In this document: positions 2,387-39,664 of the stretch, piece by piece
Numbering within the stretch: position 1 is the first letter of the stretch
How the letters are laid out: each line of letters begins with the position of its first letter
From: a virus
IMG/VR virus record: IMGVR_UViG_3300023172_003376
Location: 1-42,247 of that record
Length of the DNA stretch: 42,247 bases
Strand: one strand, 5' to 3'
Translations under genes and position numbers: made by a program
Notes under the pieces: model-generated
What the model was told of the DNA's origin: nothing
The model's input: only the letters and a program-made list of their open reading frames with translations
Database searches by the model: none

Positions 2387-2952
2387 TCGTAATCAGTCAG
2401 CCAAAAGCAGGCACTTATCTTTGTGCCAATGTGCTTCAAGAACTTGGATTAAGATTTGATGGTTATCACTTGGGAGAAAAGAAATATGAAAAATACCCAC
2501 CCCCAAGTGCTCCGCATTATCAAGCGGCCATACGTGATCCTAAAACAGTTGAAACTAGACAACGTCTGCATCAATCTATCAAATTGATTGAACCGGGTGC
2601 ATTTGCAGTCAGTCACTTGTTGTACACTATTGAAAATGAATTATTGCTCACAGATTATCACAAAATATGTGTCACAAGGCCCGAAACAGAAATTATCGAC
2701 AGTTTGAAAAGATGGGAACAGTTCAGTGGTAGAAAACCCACAAACATAACACCCACTCTAGCAAGAATACGCAGTGTGGCCAAATGGATTGGCCGTCCGG
2801 GAGTGTTTCACCTCACATTCAATAACATGAAATCCGCTGACGCAACAAGAATTGATCAGTTACAGCAGTTTCTTGGTATTCAAGATCGTGTTGACAGCAG
2901 TCAATTGTGTGCCCGTGCTTTACAGCGTGGAAGCAAAACTAAAGTTACGTGA
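2371..2952 (+). CDS. Sulfotransferase-like P-loop protein
   Basis: The N terminus reads MSKKVIVISQPKAGTYL. PKAGTYL corresponds to the 5'-phosphosulfate loop of PAPS-dependent sulfotransferases (typically PKSGTTW), and TRPETEIIDSLKRW near residues 105-118 resembles their 3'-phosphate-binding motif (RxPxxxxxS). At 193 residues it is shorter than usual cellular sulfotransferases. The ATG at 2371 was preferred to one 14 codons upstream because the loop normally sits at the very N terminus and this start gives only a 16-base overlap with the SGNH gene. It would add sulfate to a glycan made by its neighbours; this is inference. It converges on the methyltransferase gene, sharing 8 bases. A non-sulfate P-loop role is possible. 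Confidence 0.55.
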   Translation: MSKKVIVISQPKAGTYLCANVLQELGLRFDGYHLGEKKYEKYPPPSAPHYQAAIRDPKTVETRQRLHQSIKLIEPGAFAVSHLLYTIENELLLTDYHKICVTRPETEIIDSLKRWEQFSGRKPTNITPTLARIRSVAKWIGRPGVFHLTFNNMKSADATRIDQLQQFLGIQDRVDSSQLCARALQRGSKTKVT

Positions 2953-3637
2953 CCACAATACAACTTGCTTGGTAGGCCCAGTTCCTATTTAACGGCTTGA
3001 CTTTTCTTTTACATTCGTCCAGCCACTCGATCAATGCCAGGAACTCGTGATCCTGCCATTTGCTCATTTTGCCACTCAGTCGAAAGTTACAGAACTCGTC
3101 GAAGGTGATCACCGTTCCTGCTACGATCTGATCATTCAATGCTGTCAAAACTTCTTTAGTGGATGAATAGATATCTGCATCCATGTGCAAGAACGCGATT
3201 GGTCCTGTGTTGTGCTGTTTCCATATGGGTAGTGTATCCTTGAACCAACCTTTGTGTAGTTGGATGTGATCAGGTACAGTGGGAGGATCGCAACTCATGT
3301 CGTTTACTTTACCTGTGCCGTGATCCCAATCTTCAGGTAATCCTTGCCAAGAATCAAATGCGTGTATCACTTGCGAGGGATATCGGTCTATAAGCCACTT
3401 GAGGCTCCTGCCTTCCCTCACACCAAACTCACACCAGTGACCTTGTAGTGTCACATGTTCCGTTGATTCTATCAGGTGCACGTGTATGCTCTCTCTGTAG
3501 TTGGCAGATGTGCTCTTACCAACATATATGGGATCCAAAGCGATCCAGTCTTCCAACAGTGTTTTGCCTTTCTCAACTCCTGAAAGCAAAGATTGTAATT
3601 GTGATTTAGATTTTACTGTCTTAATTGCTTTTGACAC
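2945..3637 (-). CDS. TylF/macrocin-O-methyltransferase-like SAM methyltransferase
   Basis: This 230-residue class I methyltransferase has the SAM-binding motif WCEFGVREGRSL near residues 68-79, then HAFDSWQGLP (end of strand 2) and FLHMDADIYSST near residue 150. The last resembles the acidic metal-binding motif of the TylF (macrocin O-methyltransferase) family, which methylates sugar hydroxyls. Such proteins are frequent in glycan clusters of bacteria and large phages. It is the last gene of the minus-strand run that begins upstream with gp61 and gp41, two bases after the gp41 stop, but its role fits the opposite-strand glycan genes at 690-2952. O-methylation of a phage-directed glycan is the best guess. 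Confidence 0.7.
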   Translation of the reverse strand: MSKAIKTVKSKSQLQSLLSGVEKGKTLLEDWIALDPIYVGKSTSANYRESIHVHLIESTEHVTLQGHWCEFGVREGRSLKWLIDRYPSQVIHAFDSWQGLPEDWDHGTGKVNDMSCDPPTVPDHIQLHKGWFKDTLPIWKQHNTGPIAFLHMDADIYSSTKEVLTALNDQIVAGTVITFDEFCNFRLSGKMSKWQDHEFLALIEWLDECKRKVKPLNRNWAYQASCIVVT

Positions 3638-3639
3638 AT

Positions 3640-5115
3640 TTACTGTTCTTCGTCTGAGTGTAGTTCGTTTAACAGTTGTCTCAGTTTGCCACCCTCTACC
3701 GTGGCCTTGACTTTGACCCCTAGTGCATCACCCTTACGTGGATCCGGCACTTCCGGTCTCGCATCTGTGGATGCATCTCCACCCGTAACTTTGGATGTTT
3801 GTTTTAGTGAATCATAAATTTTGTTCTTGCCCTGTTGATTGTAGCTCTGTGACTCGTCTTCATCCAGGCTTCTGATTCTCAAACTGTCCACGTCAAACTC
3901 AAGATCCACTTTCTGTCCAACACCAGAACTTGATCTTGTTTTCATGAACTGTATCTGATACCTGCCACGTTCCTTCATTGCTCGGCTTGTGAATATACCT
4001 ATCACGTTGTCTGCTGTCTGTATCTTAGATAGTCCGCCTGATATGTGAGAATGATCAAACTCAATCTCTTCAACCGATGCCCTGTTCAACTGTGATGCTG
4101 TGGCCAACACACACTGTTTCTCAACGACCAAGTTCCTTAGTTCCTCACTCACATACTTGTCTTTGATAAACAAGTCTGCTGGTGATATCCTTTTGCTCTT
4201 AGGCATCATGAGATCCAAGTAGTCAATCAGTATGCAGTCTATTTTCTTCTTGTTCTTGAGTTCTAGTTCCTTCAGATATGTCCTCACATCCAACACGTTG
4301 CTACCACTGGGCAAGTATTTGATCTGCAGGTTACCTGACTTCTTCTTCAACATCTTGACCTTCATCTCAACGTTTTCTATTTCAGGAAACACTCTCCTGG
4401 TCGGGATATTGGTCATCATGGCATCTAGTCTCATGGCAGTAAGTTGTTCGCTCAATTCAAAAGATATGTAACATACATTCAATCCTGCCTGTGCCCAGTT
4501 CACTGCAAGATTCTGCAAGAACAAACTCTTACCTGCACCTGATCCGCCTGCAAAGATGTTCAGTTCGCCTCGGTTGAACCCTCCAAACAGTTTCTTGTCT
4601 AGGTTCGCCCATCCTGTACTGATCTGTCCGTTGTTGTCTTTGAGTGCTTCGAGTCTTCCTTTTGGATCTTCGAAGTAGTCCGTGCCGAGATCTCTTGTGA
4701 GCCCAACCTGTACTGCTTCCTTGACCATGTCCTCGACTGGACCATAGTCACCTCTCTCTAATAGATCAGCAGACGACAGTATTGCTTGTTCAAGTGCTTT
4801 GTGTCTACAAAATGTTTCAAACTCGTCCAGCAACCAATTGAAATGGCTTGGATCCAGATCCTTCGCTGTTTTTAATTTTATATCGTGTGATGCATTAACT
4901 ATGTCAACTTCCGGCATAACCTTGTACTCGTCCATGTAGTCTTTGACGAACTTGGCAATTGGTTGCAGTTTACGATCGAATGAATTAGGATTGAATATAT
5001 TCTGTGCTCTAGCAAATGATTCAGCATCCGCCAACAACATCTCTATGTACAATTTCTGCACATCAAAAGAATAGTTCTTAGCCTGGTGTTGTTCGTTGTT
5101 ATTATAATCAGCCAT
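3640..5115 (-). CDS. 41: Replicative DNA helicase, T4 gp41 type
   Basis: The 491-residue protein is a DnaB-like hexameric helicase (T4 gp41 is 475 residues). The N-terminal 150 residues form the helical collar domain. A RecA-fold motor follows with Walker A GGSGAGKS at about 190-197, a Walker B strand with LIDYLDLM, and TASQLNR downstream, the typical DnaB H3/H4 region. It unwinds the lagging-strand template 5' to 3' at the phage fork and works with the gp61 primase, whose gene lies immediately upstream and overlaps by 8 bases, so the two are translated together. The C-terminal 60 residues are polar and probably disordered. Assignment is firm. Confidence 0.95.
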   Translation of the reverse strand: MADYNNNEQHQAKNYSFDVQKLYIEMLLADAESFARAQNIFNPNSFDRKLQPIAKFVKDYMDEYKVMPEVDIVNASHDIKLKTAKDLDPSHFNWLLDEFETFCRHKALEQAILSSADLLERGDYGPVEDMVKEAVQVGLTRDLGTDYFEDPKGRLEALKDNNGQISTGWANLDKKLFGGFNRGELNIFAGGSGAGKSLFLQNLAVNWAQAGLNVCYISFELSEQLTAMRLDAMMTNIPTRRVFPEIENVEMKVKMLKKKSGNLQIKYLPSGSNVLDVRTYLKELELKNKKKIDCILIDYLDLMMPKSKRISPADLFIKDKYVSEELRNLVVEKQCVLATASQLNRASVEEIEFDHSHISGGLSKIQTADNVIGIFTSRAMKERGRYQIQFMKTRSSSGVGQKVDLEFDVDSLRIRSLDEDESQSYNQQGKNKIYDSLKQTSKVTGGDASTDARPEVPDPRKGDALGVKVKATVEGGKLRQLLNELHSDEEQ

Positions 5116-6121
5116 ACATCTTTCTCTTCAAATCTATTTTCAGTTTACTGGACTCAGTTGTTTTCAGTATCGATTGTATAGTAAACAGTCTACCATATTT
5201 TAACACAGCATCCGCCACATCGCCAACCGTTTTGTCCCATTCTGGAAATGCCACACTCCATCCAAATTCTGTTGCTTGGTCTACCAATTTCTGTCCTGGA
5301 GCATCTCTGTCCGGCACTACAATCACCTGTCTGCCAAGTCCATCAATCAACTCTCGCTGTGTGTCATTTATCTCCGATCCCAGTATGCTCACACCAGATA
5401 CGGCTATGGCGTCGAATGGTCCTTCTGTGACTATGACAAACTTCCTGGTCCAGTCCTGTGCGTCCATGTTGAACACGTATCCAGGCCACACGTCTGTGTA
5501 ATACTTCACGCTATCTGATTCCTCGAACATCCTGCCTGTGAATCCTACAATCTCTCCTCGCCAGTAGAATGGTATTAGCAATCTTTGGTGCACGTCCCAG
5601 ATCTTATCAGGTGAGTACATGAAGTCATACCAGTCTGCACCAATTCCTCGGCTCTCCAAATACTTTAGTAGTCCATCTATCTTCTTCCATTGTGGTTCAG
5701 TGAGATCATTGCCCACATACTTCTCCAGCCACACATCCAGTTTGTGTGTGTTCTTGGGCAGTGTCTTGTTCTTGAATGACACGAATTTCTTCTTCTCATA
5801 CTTCACATCTCCTTCCTCCTCACGCATGGCCTCTATGGCCAACTTACGTATGGTGTCCTCCGGTATACCTATGTAGCCCATGAACTGTCTCATCTTGTAG
5901 GTCAGTTTACGTCCTATCACATAACTGGCCTTGAAGCCACAGTTGAAGCAGTGGTAACTCACAGTGCCATCCGCACTGGTCATCAGTCCGCCACGCTTCT
6001 TTTTGTCAGCAGTCTCCCCGTTGTAAACACAACAGGGTGCGTTGAAACTGATCCATCCGCTTGGTGTTTTCTTTCTGTTTGCAGGCAGGCTAGTCAGAAT
6101 TGTATTCTGTATAAGATTCAT
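5108..6121 (-). CDS. 61: DNA primase, T4 gp61 type
   Basis: The 337-residue protein has an N-terminal zinc ribbon, with Cys30/Cys31 and the pair C58-x2-C61 in YHCFNCGF, and a TOPRIM domain with VTEGPFDAIA (the catalytic Glu motif) followed by VVPDRDAPG (the DxD motif). This is the architecture of gp61, which makes RNA primers for Okazaki fragments and forms the primosome with gp41. It is the same length class as T4 gp61 (342 residues). The start codon is 4-5 bases from the predicted start site of a sigma70-like promoter in the end of the upstream gene, so the mRNA may have almost no leader. Translational coupling to gene 41 is likely. Confidence 0.93.
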   Translation of the reverse strand: MNLIQNTILTSLPANRKKTPSGWISFNAPCCVYNGETADKKKRGGLMTSADGTVSYHCFNCGFKASYVIGRKLTYKMRQFMGYIGIPEDTIRKLAIEAMREEEGDVKYEKKKFVSFKNKTLPKNTHKLDVWLEKYVGNDLTEPQWKKIDGLLKYLESRGIGADWYDFMYSPDKIWDVHQRLLIPFYWRGEIVGFTGRMFEESDSVKYYTDVWPGYVFNMDAQDWTRKFVIVTEGPFDAIAVSGVSILGSEINDTQRELIDGLGRQVIVVPDRDAPGQKLVDQATEFGWSVAFPEWDKTVGDVADAVLKYGRLFTIQSILKTTESSKLKIDLKRKMYG

Positions 6122-6131
6122 AATCTATACT

Positions 6132-6160
6132 ATTTTACTGTCTATATAGGATTTTGTCAA
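6132..6160 (-). promoter_or_regulatory. Sigma70-like early promoter for genes 61-41
   Basis: On the minus strand TTGACA (6160-6155), a 17-base spacer and TAAAAT (6137-6132) form a near-consensus host-type promoter. It lies in the 3' end of the structural gene at 6135-6938 and points at gp61. The expected start site near 6125 leaves a leader of only about 4 bases before the ATG at 6121. It would let gp61 and gp41 be expressed early although the gene in front carries a late box. Confidence 0.65.
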
Positions 6161-6938
6161 TCACACCAGTGTTACCACTGTCGTTGCCCCAACTGAATCT
6201 CACACTGTGGTACACACCCGTGAAGTTGAAGTTGGTAACTGTTGTCGAGTTAGAGAAAGTATTCGCTGTGGATCCTGCACCTTCCATGGTAATATCAAAG
6301 TAGTCTGTGTTGCTCGGTGAAGCACTCATTGTACCTTGCACTCTCAACGCACCTGAGAAATTTTTTGTGTACACAGCAATCGTGTGTAAAGCCTTGTTGT
6401 TATTGATTCCTGGTCTAGAATCTATTGATCCTGATGTGTATGCCAGTGGACCACCTGATGCTGTGAAACTCGAAACACTTGTACTCGCTACGAATTCTGG
6501 ATAAGCACCATCCAGTAGTTCTACTGTGCCAGCGGCCGCATAACCAGTGTCTGCGTATGTGATCTCTCTGCTACCATCTGATTTTACCTCTCTTACTGAG
6601 AAGTTATAGAACTTGGCATCCAGCGGTAATAGGTCTCCCTCCGTTATCGTGCAACTGGCATCACCCTTGGTGCTCACAGTTGAGCCATCATCCAGTATGG
6701 TTAGTGTCTTTGTCAGCACCGCTTTCTTGCTCTCAGAATCGATCATGTTGAACTCGTAGGTCTTGCTTGTTATGTCCTGTGCCTTCTGATCCTCGTTCTT
6801 GAACGTGAATGAGACTGGGTTTGATACCCCTCTGTGCAGTGTTAGGCGTCTATCGTACACTTTTGAGTTCCTTCCGTGATAACCACTTACGTAGGCTATT
6901 ACCAACTGATTTATTAAATACCTTTGTACTGTTTGCAT
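6135..6938 (-). CDS. Putative baseplate/tail structural protein with BppU-like N-terminal region
   Basis: This 267-residue beta-rich protein has no catalytic motif. Residues about 30-150 (RRLTLHRGVSNPVSFTF, then DITSKTYEFNMID, then ITEGDLLPL) resemble the N-terminal beta-sandwich seen in BppU-type baseplate proteins and in structural proteins of marine T4-like phages. The C-terminal half is Ser/Thr/Asn-rich and may be a second sandwich domain that binds a partner or ligand. It has a perfect T4-type late box 16 bases upstream, which fits a virion role even though it lies between replication genes. The promoter for gp61 begins inside its end. An exact homolog in T4 is not recognised. Confidence 0.5.
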   Translation of the reverse strand: MQTVQRYLINQLVIAYVSGYHGRNSKVYDRRLTLHRGVSNPVSFTFKNEDQKAQDITSKTYEFNMIDSESKKAVLTKTLTILDDGSTVSTKGDASCTITEGDLLPLDAKFYNFSVREVKSDGSREITYADTGYAAAGTVELLDGAYPEFVASTSVSSFTASGGPLAYTSGSIDSRPGINNNKALHTIAVYTKNFSGALRVQGTMSASPSNTDYFDITMEGAGSTANTFSNSTTVTNFNFTGVYHSVRFSWGNDSGNTGVIDKILYRQ

Positions 6939-6970: not shown

Positions 6971-7345
6971 ATGAACGAGATTTTTAACACACTGAGGGAC
7001 AAGTTCCCATTCCTTAGCCTGATCAGAAAGGGTGATTTGGAGTACGTGGGCATAGTACAGAACGAGGATGCCAACGTAATCAGTTTTTATGATTATGGAA
7101 GGCTCATGATGCCACAAGACAAGATGAAGTTCCTTAAATGTGGAGAGACCTGGTGGCACGAATCCAATCGTAAATTACCAATCAACATATTCCTCAAGGG
7201 TGAGTTCAGATATTTCCGTTCCACGTTGGTAACTCTAAATTCGAAAGACATAGAGATAGTGCATGGTCCTACAGTTAAACTTTCTGAAATTTCAAAGAAA
7301 CGGGTCAAAAGAAGAACTATCCAATTAGTTAGAAGACCTACTTAA
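6971..7345 (+). CDS. Conserved-looking hypothetical protein, 124 residues
   Basis: The small basic protein is on the opposite strand to its neighbours. It has no motif I recognise. The first 80 residues look globular (SFYDYGRLMMPQDK, then CGETWWHESNRKLPI). The last 20 are strongly basic (KKRVKRRTIQLVRR), which would suit nucleic-acid binding. It is divergent from the structural gene at 6938 with 32 bases between the start codons, and it converges on the 55-residue gene at 7338 with an 8-base overlap. Coding quality looks good throughout and there is no competing frame. Function unknown. Confidence 0.6.
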   Translation: MNEIFNTLRDKFPFLSLIRKGDLEYVGIVQNEDANVISFYDYGRLMMPQDKMKFLKCGETWWHESNRKLPINIFLKGEFRYFRSTLVTLNSKDIEIVHGPTVKLSEISKKRVKRRTIQLVRRPT

Positions 7346-7505
7346 TTTTAGTAGGTTCGGTCGAATTTATTCCACACACTTTTTCAACATACTTCGTCAA
7401 CGGATTATTGGCCTGGTAGGAGTCTAGTTCTGATGTTAATGATGAAGCGGTATTGGATCTCTTACGTTTTTTAATGATTATTTTTTTATGTTTTTGATGG
7501 TGCAT
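7338..7505 (-). CDS. Small basic protein, 55 residues
   Basis: Reading the minus strand from the ATG at 7505 gives a 55-residue protein. It has a His/Lys/Ile-rich basic N terminus (MHHQKHKKII), then SNTASSLTSELDSYQ and NPLTKYVEKVCGI, a plausible helix-turn-helix-length helical segment. It begins inside the 3' end of the DnaE-like gene (20-base overlap) and ends 8 bases inside the convergent gene at 6971-7345. Without it 7346-7485 would be an unexplained gap in a very compact genome. A GCTAAATA box lies 8 bases before the ATG. The start is less certain than the rest, because the N-terminal HHQKHKK is unusual. Function unknown. Confidence 0.6.
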   Translation of the reverse strand: MHHQKHKKIIIKKRKRSNTASSLTSELDSYQANNPLTKYVEKVCGINSTEPTKIK

Positions 7506-8076
7506 CAAAACTATATTTAGCTCTGTTTATCAGATTCATCTGCACCACTATGGCCTGTGCATATGCCACTGCGTGTGATTTCTTGAAGAAGTAACTGCCA
7601 TCTGTGGGTTTGATCCAAACTTCTTTCATGATGTCTACCCAGTCCTTGTGCATTAGTTGTCTTTTGGCAGGACGTATTATGGCCAACACAGCCGCAAGTT
7701 GTTCTATGGTACGTGGTTCAAGTTTTGACACTATGTTGTAGTGGCCATTTAGGTGGAAAAGGTTTTCCACGATCTTTGGATCTTTCAGCATGTCCCAGTC
7801 TGGTTCTTGGATCATGAGCTCGACAAGTTCCTGTTCTGATTTAACGTCCTTGTATATGTTCACGTTAAGGCAGTCTATCTTGAAGTATCCTCTGTCTTCC
7901 GCTTGTTTGTAATCTAAACTTGCGTGTCCTGTCACAGGGTGTTCTGGTACTGCATGGAAGTAAACTCCCGTCTTGTGTTTCTCACTCTTGCCATCTTTGA
8001 TCATTGATGCCGGAGTGTGTTTGAATAACTTCAATGTGTTGTCTCTGTCAAAAAAATCTATGTCTACATCAGGCAT
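7486..8076 (-). CDS. Miniature DnaE-like (DNA polymerase III alpha catalytic core-like) protein
   Basis: At only 196 residues this protein strings together core motifs of bacterial DnaE in the right order. MPDVDIDFFDR at 1-11 matches the PDxDxDF motif with the two metal-binding Asp. GVYFHAVPEHPVTG at 37-50 and GYFKIDCL at 63-70 match the segment with the third catalytic Asp (DnaE GLVKFDFLGL). EPRTIEQLAAVLAIIRPA at 120-137 and KKSHAVAYA at 165-173 match the finger motifs (LVALYRPG and NKSHSAAYA). The PHP, thumb and C-terminal domains are missing. All three catalytic Asp appear to be kept (D3 or D5, D7, D68). Since T4-like phages use the family-B polymerase gp43, its job is unclear: a small polymerase, a nucleotidyltransferase, or a decoy subunit. 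The start overlaps the upstream stop by one base (TAATG). Confidence 0.7.
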   Translation of the reverse strand: MPDVDIDFFDRDNTLKLFKHTPASMIKDGKSEKHKTGVYFHAVPEHPVTGHASLDYKQAEDRGYFKIDCLNVNIYKDVKSEQELVELMIQEPDWDMLKDPKIVENLFHLNGHYNIVSKLEPRTIEQLAAVLAIIRPAKRQLMHKDWVDIMKEVWIKPTDGSYFFKKSHAVAYAQAIVVQMNLINRAKYSFDAPSKT

Positions 8077-8309
8077 TAGTGTACACTCCCTTTGTCTTTC
8101 TCTGCATGTTGTATCATCTTATCACGTGATCCAGGTTGTAACACTTCCAACACGTCAAGCAGTTTCCTGTATCCTTCTGTTTTCAATATGTCCTTGTTGA
8201 CTTTTGGCATTATCACTCTTCCTATGGATCCGTCCTCTTTGATTATCACTGCACAATCTCCGTCATCAAACTCCAAATTGTCAGACACTTCTAGATCTAT
8301 CTTAGACAA
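8076..8309 (-). CDS. Small acidic hypothetical protein, 77 residues
   Basis: This 77-residue protein has an acidic N-terminal half with a possible beta hairpin (DCAVIIKEDGSIGRVIMP) and a helical C-terminal half (YRKLLDVLEVL). It is locked between the zinc-finger gene upstream (8-base overlap) and the DnaE-like gene downstream (TAATG, 1-base overlap), so it is translated with both. The order suggests it is a partner of the DnaE-like protein, but I recognise no family. Function unknown. Confidence 0.6.
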   Translation of the reverse strand: MSKIDLEVSDNLEFDDGDCAVIIKEDGSIGRVIMPKVNKDILKTEGYRKLLDVLEVLQPGSRDKMIQHAEKDKGSVH

Positions 8310-8985
8310 TCTTGGCCTCCCTTGCTGTGTCCTGTACCAGCATGTGATCAGCGGGATAGCTCTTCAACTTGCTTGGCCAGAAACTTGGGTTTATGAATCT
8401 TTCAATCATCTGTAATTGTTCGTCGTTGAATGATTTTAACATCCTTTTGCCTGCGTTGCAACCTAGCAACAACCAAGGACTTATCTTGCCTTGCTGTATG
8501 TGTTGTACCGCCCTGTTCTTGTTCACCAGTCTGAAGTAGTCTGACCACTGTGCGTTCTGTTCTGTGGCCCAGTCCATCATTGTGGCTATGCTCCTCTGTA
8601 GTGCGGCCTCCACGGGCTCTGACTTCAAAGCCTCAATCAAGTACATCTCATATAGGTCGTCTCTAGCCCAATGATCCAGTTTCACTTTTGACTGTAACAC
8701 ATAGTCTATATACTTCTCAGGATACAAAGGGTTGATGTGCATTATGAATCTTCCAAACTTGACGAATGCGTTGTAGTATGAACTCTTGACGAAATCGTCG
8801 TATGTTTTTGTTTTTGAATTGTGTTGGTGTATCTGATAGAATCTCTGGAACACCATGAACGCATTGACCACCCACTTCTCATCTCTTTGTAGGTATCTCC
8901 TCTTAGGTTCACACAGGTGAACTTGCAGTGTACGTTCTTTGGCAAATTCCTTGCCACAGTATGTGCATTTATTTGTCGATGCCAT
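8302..8985 (-). CDS. Zinc-finger protein in replication cluster
   Basis: The 227-residue protein starts with a C2HC zinc finger: C7-x2-C10, then H23 and C25 (CTYCGKEF and LQVHLC). The remaining 200 residues are helical, rich in Trp, Tyr and Lys, with no catalytic motif. The finger and basic character suggest a DNA- or RNA-binding replication accessory factor. It overlaps the possible clamp-loader gene upstream by 17 bases and the 77-residue gene downstream by 8. I do not recognise a T4 counterpart. A role as helicase loader (gp59-like, also about 220 residues and helical) is possible but is not supported by a motif. Confidence 0.6.
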   Translation of the reverse strand: MASTNKCTYCGKEFAKERTLQVHLCEPKRRYLQRDEKWVVNAFMVFQRFYQIHQHNSKTKTYDDFVKSSYYNAFVKFGRFIMHINPLYPEKYIDYVLQSKVKLDHWARDDLYEMYLIEALKSEPVEAALQRSIATMMDWATEQNAQWSDYFRLVNKNRAVQHIQQGKISPWLLLGCNAGKRMLKSFNDEQLQMIERFINPSFWPSKLKSYPADHMLVQDTAREAKIV

Positions 8986-9635: not shown

Positions 9636-10122
9636 AGTCCACCTGTTCACACTGTCTCGAGATGTCTTTTACGAAGTAGGCACACATGGGTTTTGGACCA
9701 TTGTTCAACGGCACAGCCAACATCTGTCCTGACTTTATCTTAGGGAAATACCATTTCACTTCTGTGTAGATGTCTACCACGTCTATTGGATGGAAGTCGG
9801 GTTTTGGACTTGACAACGGATTGAATGTGAAAGCATCGAACCCTCTGTCGTTGAGACTTGTTATTGGTAAAACATGCATCTCTGATTGTCCCGCCTCACC
9901 GATCAACATCTTCCAGTCCAGTGGCATCTTTATCTTGTGTGGTCCAATCTCTAGAACCGCCGCTGGTGCATTGAAACTTTCCAAGAAGATCAAAGGTATG
10001 TAGAAGAAATCCGGATTGGTAGGATCTGAATTGTCCAGCACAGCGAATCTCAACTTCTCGTCCACCCACTCGGGTATCTTCTCTAATGTGTATGTTCTGT
10101 TATCCAGTGTAAGGATTTTCAT
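9619..10122 (-). CDS. Hypothetical protein of the uvsW operon, 167 residues
   Basis: This 167-residue protein is beta-rich and acidic, with no recognised catalytic motif. Notable stretches are NPDFFYIPLIFLESF, a HKIKMPLDWKMLIG segment and a C-terminal PKPMCAYFVKDIS strand. It overlaps the end of uvsW by 23 bases, and its own end overlaps the next gene, so it is co-expressed with the replication set. The even composition and lack of low-complexity sequence suggest a folded soluble protein. I cannot assign a function. Confidence 0.55.
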   Translation of the reverse strand: MKILTLDNRTYTLEKIPEWVDEKLRFAVLDNSDPTNPDFFYIPLIFLESFNAPAAVLEIGPHKIKMPLDWKMLIGEAGQSEMHVLPITSLNDRGFDAFTFNPLSSPKPDFHPIDVVDIYTEVKWYFPKIKSGQMLAVPLNNGPKPMCAYFVKDISRQCEQVDYGSVW

Positions 10123-11566
10123 AATTTATCTTTTCTATATTATACGGGTAATTGGCCTCTTTGTAAAACTTTTTCCTTGCCCCCAGATGTCTTTTCGCAA
10201 ACTTGCAACTGCTGGTGATGTCCCAGATCTGCACACTGTCCTTGTCTTCTGCTTTCCTGATCCCACGTCCAATACTCTGTATTACCCGCACGAAAGACTT
10301 GCCTGGTTCTATGAGAACAAGATTAAAAATCCTAGGAATATTAATACCAACAGCGGCAACTCCATATGTGGCGATAATAACTTTATTTGTTGCAGTAGAT
10401 ATTTCATCATATTGTTCCTTCCTGTCTGTGTTTTTGGTTGATCCGGACACGAACACCGCATCCTCGATCTGCTCTTCCAAGATCTCCCCCGCGGATATCC
10501 TGTCCACAAGTATCAGTGTGTTACCTGAACTTGATATGTCCTTGATTGTGTTGGCCACCCATTTCATCCTGTTCTTGTCTGTTGTAAGCCATTTCAGTTC
10601 CTCTCCGTATGTCTTAAATTGTGGATGATCCTGTGTCTGTAGAACGTTGACATGGCAGTTCGCCAATACACCCTTGTCTTGCAGTTCGCTGGCCTGTATC
10701 CTGTTAGACACATCACCTATGCTACATTTCAAACCCATGAACTCGTAATCTGCTTTGGGTACTGTGCCTGTCAGTCCCCAACGTATTCCACAGTGTGCGA
10801 ATGGACCGGTCAGCAATCTCTTCAGCACATCTGCCTTGGCCATGTGCACCTCATCGATAATCACTGTGTTGATGCCTTGTATGGCTTCTAAGAAATCCGT
10901 CGTGTGTTCGTCCTTGCTTTTCTTTTCAAGCACGTTCAGTGATTGCCATGTTGCTATTGTGTTGAAACGTCCCAGTTCTTTCCTGTCACCGTAATACACG
11001 CCCACGTCTAGGTTACAAGCAAGGAAGTCTTCCTCGGTCTGTGTCACAAGACTCTTGTTTGGTACTATAGTAAGTGTACGACCATATGGTTCGACCAATT
11101 GGCACAAGGCCGCTGTGATTATGGTCTTGCCCGCACCAGTGGCGATTTCCTGTATGCTCTGTGGATGTTCTATGAACTTGTTGATTGTTTCCACTTGGTA
11201 GTCTCTTAATTCGATTGGTTGTCCCGCGGCTGGATGATTCTCTGGCCATGTTATGTGTGATAGGTAATTCTTATCTACTTGTTTAAATTCAAAATTGTGT
11301 TGCTCCCTTCTGTCCTCAACATCTATGTAAACTCCGCCCTCATCGAGTATGGGAAGTATTTGGTCAACTAGGTTTAGATATGTTGTCCCACCCAACCCAA
11401 AAAACGACACCTTGCCGTCCCACCTACCTAACTTCACTGCTGGTAGATGCCTTGCGTATGGTATCTCATATTTGAATTTGTTGGAAAGTCTCTTACGCCA
11501 TTCGAGGCTTAGGTTCTCGAACTTCACGTTCACTTCATCTTTTATTACTAGTTTACAACTGCTCAT
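10100..11566 (-). CDS. uvsW: UvsW-type recombination DNA helicase
   Basis: The 488-residue SF2 helicase (T4 UvsW is 503 residues) has an N-terminal DNA-binding domain, then RDYQVETI (Q-like motif) near 121, Walker A ATGAGKT at 142-148, DEVH at 238-241, LTGT (motif III) and QSIGRGIR (motif VI) near residue 435. UvsW unwinds D-loops and R-loops and regresses forks, which drives the switch from origin-dependent to recombination-dependent replication. It is the second gene behind a strong sigma70-like promoter and begins one base after the stop of the 451-residue gene. Assignment is firm. Confidence 0.93.
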   Translation of the reverse strand: MSSCKLVIKDEVNVKFENLSLEWRKRLSNKFKYEIPYARHLPAVKLGRWDGKVSFFGLGGTTYLNLVDQILPILDEGGVYIDVEDRREQHNFEFKQVDKNYLSHITWPENHPAAGQPIELRDYQVETINKFIEHPQSIQEIATGAGKTIITAALCQLVEPYGRTLTIVPNKSLVTQTEEDFLACNLDVGVYYGDRKELGRFNTIATWQSLNVLEKKSKDEHTTDFLEAIQGINTVIIDEVHMAKADVLKRLLTGPFAHCGIRWGLTGTVPKADYEFMGLKCSIGDVSNRIQASELQDKGVLANCHVNVLQTQDHPQFKTYGEELKWLTTDKNRMKWVANTIKDISSSGNTLILVDRISAGEILEEQIEDAVFVSGSTKNTDRKEQYDEISTATNKVIIATYGVAAVGINIPRIFNLVLIEPGKSFVRVIQSIGRGIRKAEDKDSVQIWDITSSCKFAKRHLGARKKFYKEANYPYNIEKINYENPYTG

Positions 11567-36259: not shown

Positions 36260-39200
36260 TTAGTTCCCTAACTTTGCAATTTCTCCTGTGTTTTTGATTC
36301 TCAACGGTATGTAGATGAATTCAACTGACTTGATCGGCTCAATTGCTATATCCACGTACAGTTCGTTCCTGTCAATCCTTGTAGGTGTGTTGTTCGTGTC
36401 ATCACAAACTACTAGGAAGTCATACAATGCTCTCTGACCCGTCAACTCCAACAAGAATGATTCTATTGCACCCTTGATCTCGTTCCTAGTCAATTCATCA
36501 TTTGGTTCAAAGATGAATGGTTTAGCGATTGCATCCAGTTGTGTTCTTAGATACACTGCCAATCTTGAAACGTTGATCCTGTCCAATGCAGAACTTGCCG
36601 ATGTCTTAGTCAAGTTACCGAAGTTCACGATCCCTGCTCCTGAGAAGAAAGTGATTGGATTCACTTTGACCTCATGCATTGAATCTCTCACTGACTCCGT
36701 AACAGATATTGTTTGGAATTCTCCAGACGCTGTGTCGATGTAACCAACTGATGTGGCGTTGTCAACGATACCTCTTCTTGTTCCTGATGGTGCGAACCAT
36801 GGGAAAGCGATGTTGTCGTTGTTGGCCAGTGTCCTCAACATCATGTGTGATGGTGGAACAACAATTGATTTACCTGTGTTGTCTGTTGTTTGACCAGATG
36901 GATAAAACACACCCAAGTAATCACTTGAACTCACTAGGCCGTCTTCACCATTGTCAAGTGCTGACGCTGTGTTGTTTGCCCAGTTCTGTATCGCAGTTGA
37001 CGTACCTTCTAATCTAAATGGTGTATCACCTACTACAAACGCTGTGTTGTTTCTGTCTGTGTTTAAGTTGATCATGTTTGACATCAACTCTGGGTAACCA
37101 GGACAAGCAATTACGTTGAAGCCTCTTTGGTCTTCTCTGATTGCTTGGTTGGTGTCTATTTCTGATTTAAGTTGTTCAACGATCACTTTTCTCTGTGCTT
37201 TTCTTCCGAAACTTCCAGAACCGTCTGCGTTGTTGCTAGATTTAGTAACCCATCTGTCAGGGAAGTAAGTTGATACACTCTCGTTACTTGCTCTGATGTT
37301 ACCTAAACCAGTTGAACCGCTTCCTGGATATTTCGTAGTAGTGATGTAACTGTTCTTGTATTCCTTGACGTTGTAACCAGATCTTCTAGTGTTCCATAAC
37401 ATGATACCTTGTGGGTAGTTGTCTGGATTTGGAGCATCTGGATCTAGGAAACCATCGCTCAATAAATCTTTGATTGAGCTGGCTGTACCCGCACCGCCTG
37501 TTGACAATGAATCCGCCTTGTCTGCCGTTGTGTGATATCTAGCATCCGCAAACACGATACCGTCTTCTGTGGTTTGGTCTGCTTTGTCAACCAGTTCCCA
37601 AGCCGCGCCTGAAGTGGTCACTGCCACTTGGTTCGCTGTGTTTGTAGAACTTAAAGTTGCTGATGTGTTGTATTTGTAAAGTTTTGGATAGTTCTCAAGG
37701 TCACTTGTGTCGATCCATAAGTCGTTAGTCACAAGTGCAGTACCATCTGACTGTGTGGTTGGTGCTGTTGCACTGAACTGTGGACCATTTGGATCTGTGC
37801 TTGAGTATGCTGTTGCATAACCAACCCAAGTCGTACCGTTGTGTGCCATGATGTCTGCTTCGTCTGTCGCAGTGTGGTACCATAATGTGCCGTCTGCTGG
37901 CTCATTGCTTGGAGCACTTGTAGAAGCAGTGTAACTTAGTCTCTTCCAATTACTTGCCATGATACCTGTGTTAGCACTTGAGTCAATGCTGTCACCTGTT
38001 GGTAAGTCATACAAGTTGTCGATCAAAGTAGAACTGTTGGCTGTGTATGTTCCATAACTGTGTGCTGTAGTTGAACTGAAACCTGCGTCTGCTAACGGTG
38101 TTCCTGATGTGTCGAACATTCTGAACTCACCACCCAGTGCGTGTGTCATCTGGATAGCGCCTGTTGATAGTTTAGTTGCAGAAACGTTTGTCAAACCTGC
38201 CGCACTCACCGCCGCCACAAATGCATCTGCATCTGTACCACCCAGTGTTACTGTGACTGCTGAACTCAACGCTTCTTGGTTCTTAACTGATTCCTGTATC
38301 GAGAAAGTCTCTGAACTTGTGAAAGTTGGAGATGTGCTGTTACTTGTGATAGTTGTAGCACCACCTTCATATCTGAACAGTTGGAAGTCACCAACGTTTG
38401 GAGTTGCATCACTGGCATCTCCCGCTGTCATTGACTCTTCAGTCACGTTGTACTGTGCGTACACTGTGCCTGTGCTCAATGCAGTTCCACCGTTCGCCGC
38501 GTCTAGGTTGTAGATCGCAGAGTGGTGGTTAGCATAAAGTGGACTAGCAACTTGAGAGAAACTAGCACTTGATGAACTATAAAGTTTTGTCACCAAAGAC
38601 GCACCTGAGTTTGCAGAAGTTGTCTTGAACCAAACTGAACCGTTGGGTCTGTTCTCGTCTGCTGTCTTCCAAGTAGGTCTGTTAGTGTGTTTGTCTTGTA
38701 GGAATTTAGGACCATTGTTGACACCTGCTGTGATTCCAAGGTCTGCTAACAGTGTTCCATTTCCTTCTTCGAATCTGATAGTGCCCGCACCACCCGTTGA
38801 ATCACCTAGTGCTTTACCGTTATGGAATATTTCTAGGTTACCTGTTGTGCTGTTCACACTTGCTGTCACGTTAGTAACATTTGATCCGATCACTGATGCA
38901 ACGTTTGAAAGTGTCGTACCACTTGTTGTGATTGTAACACCGTTCATGATCATTGTGTGTCCACTAGTCACTGTGGTTCCTGAAGCGACTGACACAACTG
39001 GTAGAGATGTTGACCATGCTTCTGATCCAACCTGTACCCAAGTGTTACTTGCTGTCTTCTTGTAGATCTTGTTGGTAACGTGTGTTGTGTTGATTGCGTA
39101 ATCACCTATTACACCTATTGAAGTTTTTGGTGCACCAGTTGAGACACCGTCAACTAGGTCACTTGTTGAAGTGATAAGTGTTGGAGTAATTGTTGTGAAT

Positions 39201-39664
39201 GATTGATTAGTTTTTGACCATTCAAATAAACCGTAACTGCTTGATGCAAGGTCAAACCAGTATGTGCCATCTGTTGGTGCCGCTGTTGGTGCCGTAGCAC
39301 TTCCAACTAAATCTGCTGTGTCCACGTTCGCTCTTAGGACGTATGCTCTGTTGGCAACTCCTAGGAAACTGTAGGCCGCTTGTAAGCCATATTCATTTAA
39401 CTCATAACCGTTCAATGAATTTCCTGATGCGTCTGTGTAGAATTTTGGATCTCCAAAAGTCTCTGTTAATTCTCTCTGTGACGAGATCAAATAAGCGGTG
39501 TTGGCGTTGGCAGTAGTTGTTCCTACAGCAGTCCCGTCTCCGGCCCCATTTGACTTGTCCTGTGATGATGCTACTATGAATAGTGGTGTTGTACCCGCAT
39601 CTGATGGTACGTAGAAACTTTCGTTAATTACTGAAACCTCTACTCCTGGTGATGTTAATGCCAT
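36260..39664 (-). CDS. 18: Tail sheath protein gp18, with large insertion
   Basis: At 1134 residues this is far larger than T4 gp18 (659). The conserved sheath parts are the N terminus (TSPGVEVSVINES at 4-16, up to about 115) and the C terminus from about 750 (VIVEQLKSEID, FNVIACPGYPEL, then SVEFIYIPLRI). Between them about 630 residues form an inserted region of Ser/Thr/Gly-rich beta repeats. Trp-containing units recur near 136, 209, 345, 595-613 and 650-689, and an 85-residue domain occurs twice (about 222-312 and 447-533). The insert probably decorates the outside of the tail. GGAGAA lies before the ATG and a late box is 39 bases upstream. gp19 follows 23 bases downstream. Confidence 0.92.
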   Translation of the reverse strand: MALTSPGVEVSVINESFYVPSDAGTTPLFIVASSQDKSNGAGDGTAVGTTTANANTAYLISSQRELTETFGDPKFYTDASGNSLNGYELNEYGLQAAYSFLGVANRAYVLRANVDTADLVGSATAPTAAPTDGTYWFDLASSSYGLFEWSKTNQSFTTITPTLITSTSDLVDGVSTGAPKTSIGVIGDYAINTTHVTNKIYKKTASNTWVQVGSEAWSTSLPVVSVASGTTVTSGHTMIMNGVTITTSGTTLSNVASVIGSNVTNVTASVNSTTGNLEIFHNGKALGDSTGGAGTIRFEEGNGTLLADLGITAGVNNGPKFLQDKHTNRPTWKTADENRPNGSVWFKTTSANSGASLVTKLYSSSSASFSQVASPLYANHHSAIYNLDAANGGTALSTGTVYAQYNVTEESMTAGDASDATPNVGDFQLFRYEGGATTITSNSTSPTFTSSETFSIQESVKNQEALSSAVTVTLGGTDADAFVAAVSAAGLTNVSATKLSTGAIQMTHALGGEFRMFDTSGTPLADAGFSSTTAHSYGTYTANSSTLIDNLYDLPTGDSIDSSANTGIMASNWKRLSYTASTSAPSNEPADGTLWYHTATDEADIMAHNGTTWVGYATAYSSTDPNGPQFSATAPTTQSDGTALVTNDLWIDTSDLENYPKLYKYNTSATLSSTNTANQVAVTTSGAAWELVDKADQTTEDGIVFADARYHTTADKADSLSTGGAGTASSIKDLLSDGFLDPDAPNPDNYPQGIMLWNTRRSGYNVKEYKNSYITTTKYPGSGSTGLGNIRASNESVSTYFPDRWVTKSSNNADGSGSFGRKAQRKVIVEQLKSEIDTNQAIREDQRGFNVIACPGYPELMSNMINLNTDRNNTAFVVGDTPFRLEGTSTAIQNWANNTASALDNGEDGLVSSSDYLGVFYPSGQTTDNTGKSIVVPPSHMMLRTLANNDNIAFPWFAPSGTRRGIVDNATSVGYIDTASGEFQTISVTESVRDSMHEVKVNPITFFSGAGIVNFGNLTKTSASSALDRINVSRLAVYLRTQLDAIAKPFIFEPNDELTRNEIKGAIESFLLELTGQRALYDFLVVCDDTNNTPTRIDRNELYVDIAIEPIKSVEFIYIPLRIKNTGEIAKLGN

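Follow-up and report, generated by a model that had tools for sequence, protein, structure and literature searches.

Does a 196-residue open reading frame in a T4-type virus, in which motifs of the bacterial replicase DnaE follow each other closely, encode a complete miniature polymerase of the C family or only part of one? The question is raised by the window, the 42,247-nucleotide stretch of DNA analysed here, which is a 42-kb fragment of an uncultured virus from a lineage known from fragments only. The first-pass annotation had regarded the frame as a self-contained DnaE-like core that keeps all catalytic motifs. The frame is listed among the ORFs of the window with an ATG start, and its product is called B in the following:

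7486-8076, minus strand: B, 196 aa, phrog_11778, almost certainly the C-terminal half of a split minimal Pol III alpha (metal-binding part of the palm and reduced fingers)

B derives from the palm and fingers of Pol III alpha (DnaE), and the earlier proposal of a C-family palm derivative in a T4-superfamily virus was borne out by profiles as well as structure. In profile searches, phrog_11778 ('DNA polymerase') matches residues 3-187 of B with positions 8-195 of its 197 (E 4e-66), the full-length phage Pol III family phrog_405 also matches (E 2e-6), and Pfam DNA_pol3_finger stays below the threshold (E 0.006). A PDB search with the single sequence of B gave weak MutH rows only (E about 0.55). 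The AlphaFold model of B (mean pLDDT 90.7) contains the family-C palm/fingers fold, and when it is compared with the PDB the matches above background are Pol III alpha and PolC only (Z 6.0-9.1, the next row being at 3.4). Between the window B and 76 close relatives, dN/dS has a median of 0.046 (range 0.017-0.068), which rules out a decaying remnant; together with the profile matches, the invariant residues described below and the structure matches, it also rules out a chance match or artefact.

In E. coli DnaE, D401, D403 and D555 are catalytic residues, and GRGS is the nucleotide-binding motif of the same palm active site. The four motifs that were originally quoted for B do lie in DnaE order within its 196 residues, and the key codons are placed as follows:

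8053-8073, minus strand: PDVDIDF, residues 2-8; D3, D5 and D7 correspond to E. coli D401, D403 and D405, and these aspartates do not vary among 156 distinct B sequences
7873-7881, minus strand: K66-I67-D68, corresponding to E. coli K553-F554-D555, with D68 as the third catalytic aspartate
7561-7575, minus strand: H168-Y172 (HAVAY), the fingers motif, corresponding to E. coli H760-Y764

Residue pairing further assigns H34 and G37 of B to the KHxGG region of E. coli DnaE (H511, G514) and R135/P136 to R639/P640. In the profile of the 156 distinct B sequences the columns D6, D8, D10, H37, G40, K69, D71, R138, P139, K141, H172 and Y176 are 100% conserved, and the equivalents of E. coli D401, D403, D405, H511, K553, D555, H760 and Y764 are invariant in all of them. 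The metal-binding aspartates D3, D5, D7 and D68 are hence intact, as the first-pass annotation had stated, and none of the 156 homologs has lost them. It was also right that PHP, thumb and most of the fingers are gone: the alignment of B starts at E. coli residue 400, with PHP and thumb absent, the deletion of the thumb segment leaves 29 residues between the D403 and H511 positions versus 108 in E. coli, and the deletion of most of the fingers leaves 32 residues between P640 and H760 versus 120. B likewise lacks the part of the fingers that carries the RRxxxKK motif in DnaE (R709 and R710 in E. coli). The chain begins at PDxDxD and its stop-to-stop frame extends upstream by only 14 residues, so that GRGS (E. 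coli 361-364) is absent from B along with everything else before PDxDxD. The statement that all catalytic motifs are kept is therefore incorrect for the B chain.

The GRGS half is encoded elsewhere. When 11 B-carrying phage genomes were searched with the Pfam palm family PF07733, each of them yielded, at another place in the genome, a second small ORF of about 170-200 aa, here called A, that matches the N-terminal palm segment; in a profile search A corresponds to phrog_11127 ('DNA polymerase'). As GRGS lies in this separate protein in 11/11 genomes, B is ruled out as a complete, self-contained core. The C-terminal segment of A resembles WGxGRGSSxxSYxLxLIGxHxVDSxxYxLDxxEFLK-stop, with FLNP standing in DnaE at the position of EFLK, and GxGRGS as well as R101 and E105 are 100% conserved in 134 distinct A sequences. 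The AlphaFold model of A (mean pLDDT 92.4) matches, above background, Pol III alpha and PolC chains alone, its N-terminal ~80 residues having no structural match. The models of A and B, which were fitted separately, align with residues 281-393 (Z 10.7) and 400-815 (Z 8.6) of E. coli DnaE (4jom), respectively, with 305-413 (Z 12.0) and 419-842 (Z 8.9) of M. tuberculosis DnaE (5lew), and with 826-965 (Z 7.9) and 972-1362 (Z 8.8) of PolC (3f2b). According to these predicted structures, the two ranges are complementary, with a single break in the palm: A stops where B starts. No ORF was found in which A and B are fused; where a longer ORF fits the A profile and includes the whole palm, it is either E. 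coli DnaE or a single-chain DnaE core. One contig (L130:4518-5447) encodes an A protein with about 140 additional N-terminal residues, in a stop-to-stop frame of 310 aa.

A DnaE that is encoded as two pieces is familiar from the cyanobacterial split-intein DnaE. A and B share with it the encoding in two pieces, but they have no intein-sized sequence at the break and thus cannot be joined by intein splicing: A ends with EFLK and a stop, B has a few residues ahead of PDxDxD, and intein halves were not found at this position.

A split minimal Pol III alpha has already been predicted in jumbo phages that also carry a family-B polymerase (Iyer et al. 2021, PMC7824862), and a later functional paper on split Pol III was not found in the literature searched. 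The window adds an uncultured T4-type lineage to this described enzyme. Compared with the group 2.2 jumbo-phage split Pol III (phrog_11127 and phrog_11778; PMC7824862), the C-terminal half, the profile and the split are the same, as are, at the level of the group, the coexistence with PolB and the gene neighbourhood. Different are the nature of the window as an uncultured fragment, its B, which is at most 54% identical to phage records among the matches listed, the fact that A was not found in the fragments of the lineage, and the single-chain DnaE core that some close relatives have in addition. Full-length phage Pol III (phrog_405; phage G-like, actinophage) has the family-C palm in common with the split form, but consists of long single chains that are often host-derived and contain PHP (PMC7824862). 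With respect to E. coli DnaE and Geobacillus PolC, homology extends over the palm and some of the fingers, and the metal-binding aspartates and the equivalents of K553 and H760/Y764 are kept in B, whereas B is one sixth as long, two chains are encoded instead of one, and the PHP, thumb, clamp-binding, OB and tau-binding parts and the RRxxxKK stretch are lacking.

B occurs in 69 of 50,697 phage records; the matches listed are 36-54% identical to the window B. Its relatives are common in metagenomes, at least 599 of them being found in IMG/VR. A accompanies it: 57 of the 60 listed B records are also among the best 60 A matches, and one of the other three has A by profile search. All seven contigs of at least 130 kb that were selected for B carry A, and all eight of at least 200 kb that were selected for A carry B; shorter contigs often have only one of them, as expected of fragments, and the distance between A and B is 30-45 kb or more in several relatives. 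The coexistence with gp43 that the first-pass annotation had asked about is found throughout, with a family-B polymerase in all 11 phage genomes and all 11 long contigs (22/22), and A, B and PolB are together in each of the genomes and long contigs tested. In PA5oct, Atu_ph07 and Slicko01 (the parent records of L084, L083 and L092) the PolB matches fall into two separate open frames, and judged from these sequences their PolB may be split or interrupted.

The genes around B in the window are the following:

3640-5115, minus strand: DnaB-like replicative helicase (gp41-like), in conserved gene order
5108-6121, minus strand: DNA primase (gp61-like), in conserved gene order
6135-6938, minus strand: virion structural protein, phrog_14467, in conserved gene order
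6971-7345, plus strand: convergent gene of 124 aa, phrog_11637, found beside B more constantly than any other gene
8076-8309, minus strand: acidic ORF of 77 aa, TTG start, pI 5.0, its stop overlapping the ATG of B (TAATG), conserved in close relatives only
8302-8985, minus strand: C2H2-like zinc-finger protein, phrog_11058, conserved next to B in many lineages
10100-11566, minus strand: UvsW-type DNA helicase, in conserved gene order

The order UvsW, phrog_11058, B, phrog_11637, virion protein, primase and gp41-type helicase is common to most of the jumbo phages examined. The 77-aa ORF had been suggested as a co-translated partner of B. The ORF is not conserved outside close relatives, and in other lineages the place immediately upstream of B is taken by the zinc-finger gene or by unrelated genes, which rules it out as a conserved partner; with conservation in close relatives only, it is probably not an essential one either. 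phrog_11637 (~120 aa) is convergent with B in nine of ten further loci, in two of these with one gene between, and has 58 matches in the phage collection. As far as the listed tables can be compared, these coincide with B-carrying genomes, and phrog_11637 therefore appears to be the better candidate for an accessory protein. It is a possible third component or a clade marker, and its association with B may be merely clade co-inheritance.

Building on the homology, the split point, the co-occurrence and the constraint described above, we infer that A and B form a physical complex and a catalytic unit, and we assign a probability of roughly 60% to the whole chain, in which the two halves of a split Pol III build an active site in trans and act as an accessory polymerase beside gp43. 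A would contribute the nucleotide-binding half, with GRGS contacting the incoming nucleotide, and B the metal-binding DxDxD and KxD residues together with a reduced fingers domain and its fingers helix. The junction between the halves would correspond to the FLNP...PDxDxD stretch of DnaE, and in trans they probably make up a single active site of the Pol-beta type. As the pair is without PHP, thumb, clamp-binding and OB parts, it would most likely be a low-processivity accessory polymerase for primer or gap extension beside the family-B replicase, with the DNA kept in place by other replisome proteins. Taken singly, the formation of an active nucleotidyltransferase by A and B is quite probable, and the role as accessory polymerase has about even odds. 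The replication genes around B count in favour, as does the position of A a few genes before the clamp loader gp44 in RaK2 and PA5oct. Against a polymerase count the missing RRxxxKK stretch and thumb, the fact that A was not found on the fragments of the window lineage, and the single-chain DnaE core of several relatives, which could take over this role. The PA5oct record contains a mass-spectrometry note on virion proteins, which is on neither A nor B.

Since the thumb and the RRxxxKK stretch are lost, an enzyme that works without a template is also conceivable. A and B could in this case be a nucleotidyltransferase that modifies a protein or a nucleic-acid end, like other members of the Pol-beta superfamily, and it fits that every palm residue for nucleotidyl transfer is invariant across A and B and that most of the template-binding fingers are lost together with the thumb. 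However, the fingers residues R135, P136, K138, H168 and Y172 are invariant too and the neighbourhood of B is replicative, and we think that this alternative is unlikely. More doubtful still is a catalytically inactive or regulatory role, in which A and B would serve as decoy or inhibitor of the host Pol III or as a structural component of the phage replisome. Their small size, the absence of a thumb and of clamp-binding and OB parts, and the appearance of B as a piece of the host enzyme would suit such a role, but the metal-binding aspartates never vary in 156 B sequences and GRGS never in 134 A sequences, and a decoy does not need two active-site halves that are kept in separate genes.

If the accessory-polymerase reading is correct and A and B rebuild the Pol III palm, they would rank among the smallest polymerases of the C family, with an active site of two chains, and one virus would employ two unrelated polymerase families. 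This would also bear on how the bacterial replicase was built up from a minimal nucleotidyltransferase, an ancestry argued in PMC7824862. The short proteins and their invariant residues make the proposal directly testable.

In the lineage of the window itself, A was found neither in the 42-kb window nor on the contigs of close relatives, which are fragments of up to 61 kb. The nearest relative with A and B on one contig (L295/G095) has a B that is 57% identical to that of the window, and the downstream ORFs on contigs G044, G036 and G048 gave no match to this A-bearing contig. A cluster of A from a metagenome in which a virus with an identical B also occurs (L185, L002) was rejected as a candidate: it probably belongs to other viruses, since its two contigs of more than 250 kb carry a B that is only 51-54% identical to that of the window. 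Several close relatives encode, about 5 kb downstream of B, a PHP-less single-chain DnaE core of 562 aa (L062:15694-17379; phrog_405, E 4e-68), in which palm, reduced thumb, fingers and an OB-like C-terminus can be recognized by eye. It is also present in L020, L032, L044, L051, L060 and L078 and cut off in L038 and L074, and at its position the window has a methyltransferase-like ORF (2945-3637). That B works in this lineage without the small A, alone or with another protein such as this core, would fit these observations, but it is the least probable of the readings, since the contigs are fragments whose reach ends before the distances at which A lies from B in several relatives, the window B has the same boundary and residues as the B proteins that occur with A, and the single-chain core already has a complete palm of its own.

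The phage record nearest to the 562-aa core is a 484-kb uncultured phage (LR756508; 38% identity), which has a single-chain DnaE core and in which neither B nor a small A was found. With such a core in several relatives, the polymerase set of the window lineage may be richer than that of the jumbo phages. It is tempting, though we hold it only tentatively, to see here a family-C palm formed in trans by two small proteins without an intein, from genes tens of kilobases apart, as a working thumb-less and PHP-less polymerase alongside the family-B replicase, and in certain relatives also alongside a third, single-chain mini-DnaE. Elsewhere in the window, the tail sheath protein (36260-39664, minus strand; phrog_10581, E 1e-212) has 1134 aa and exceeds the 915 positions of its family profile.
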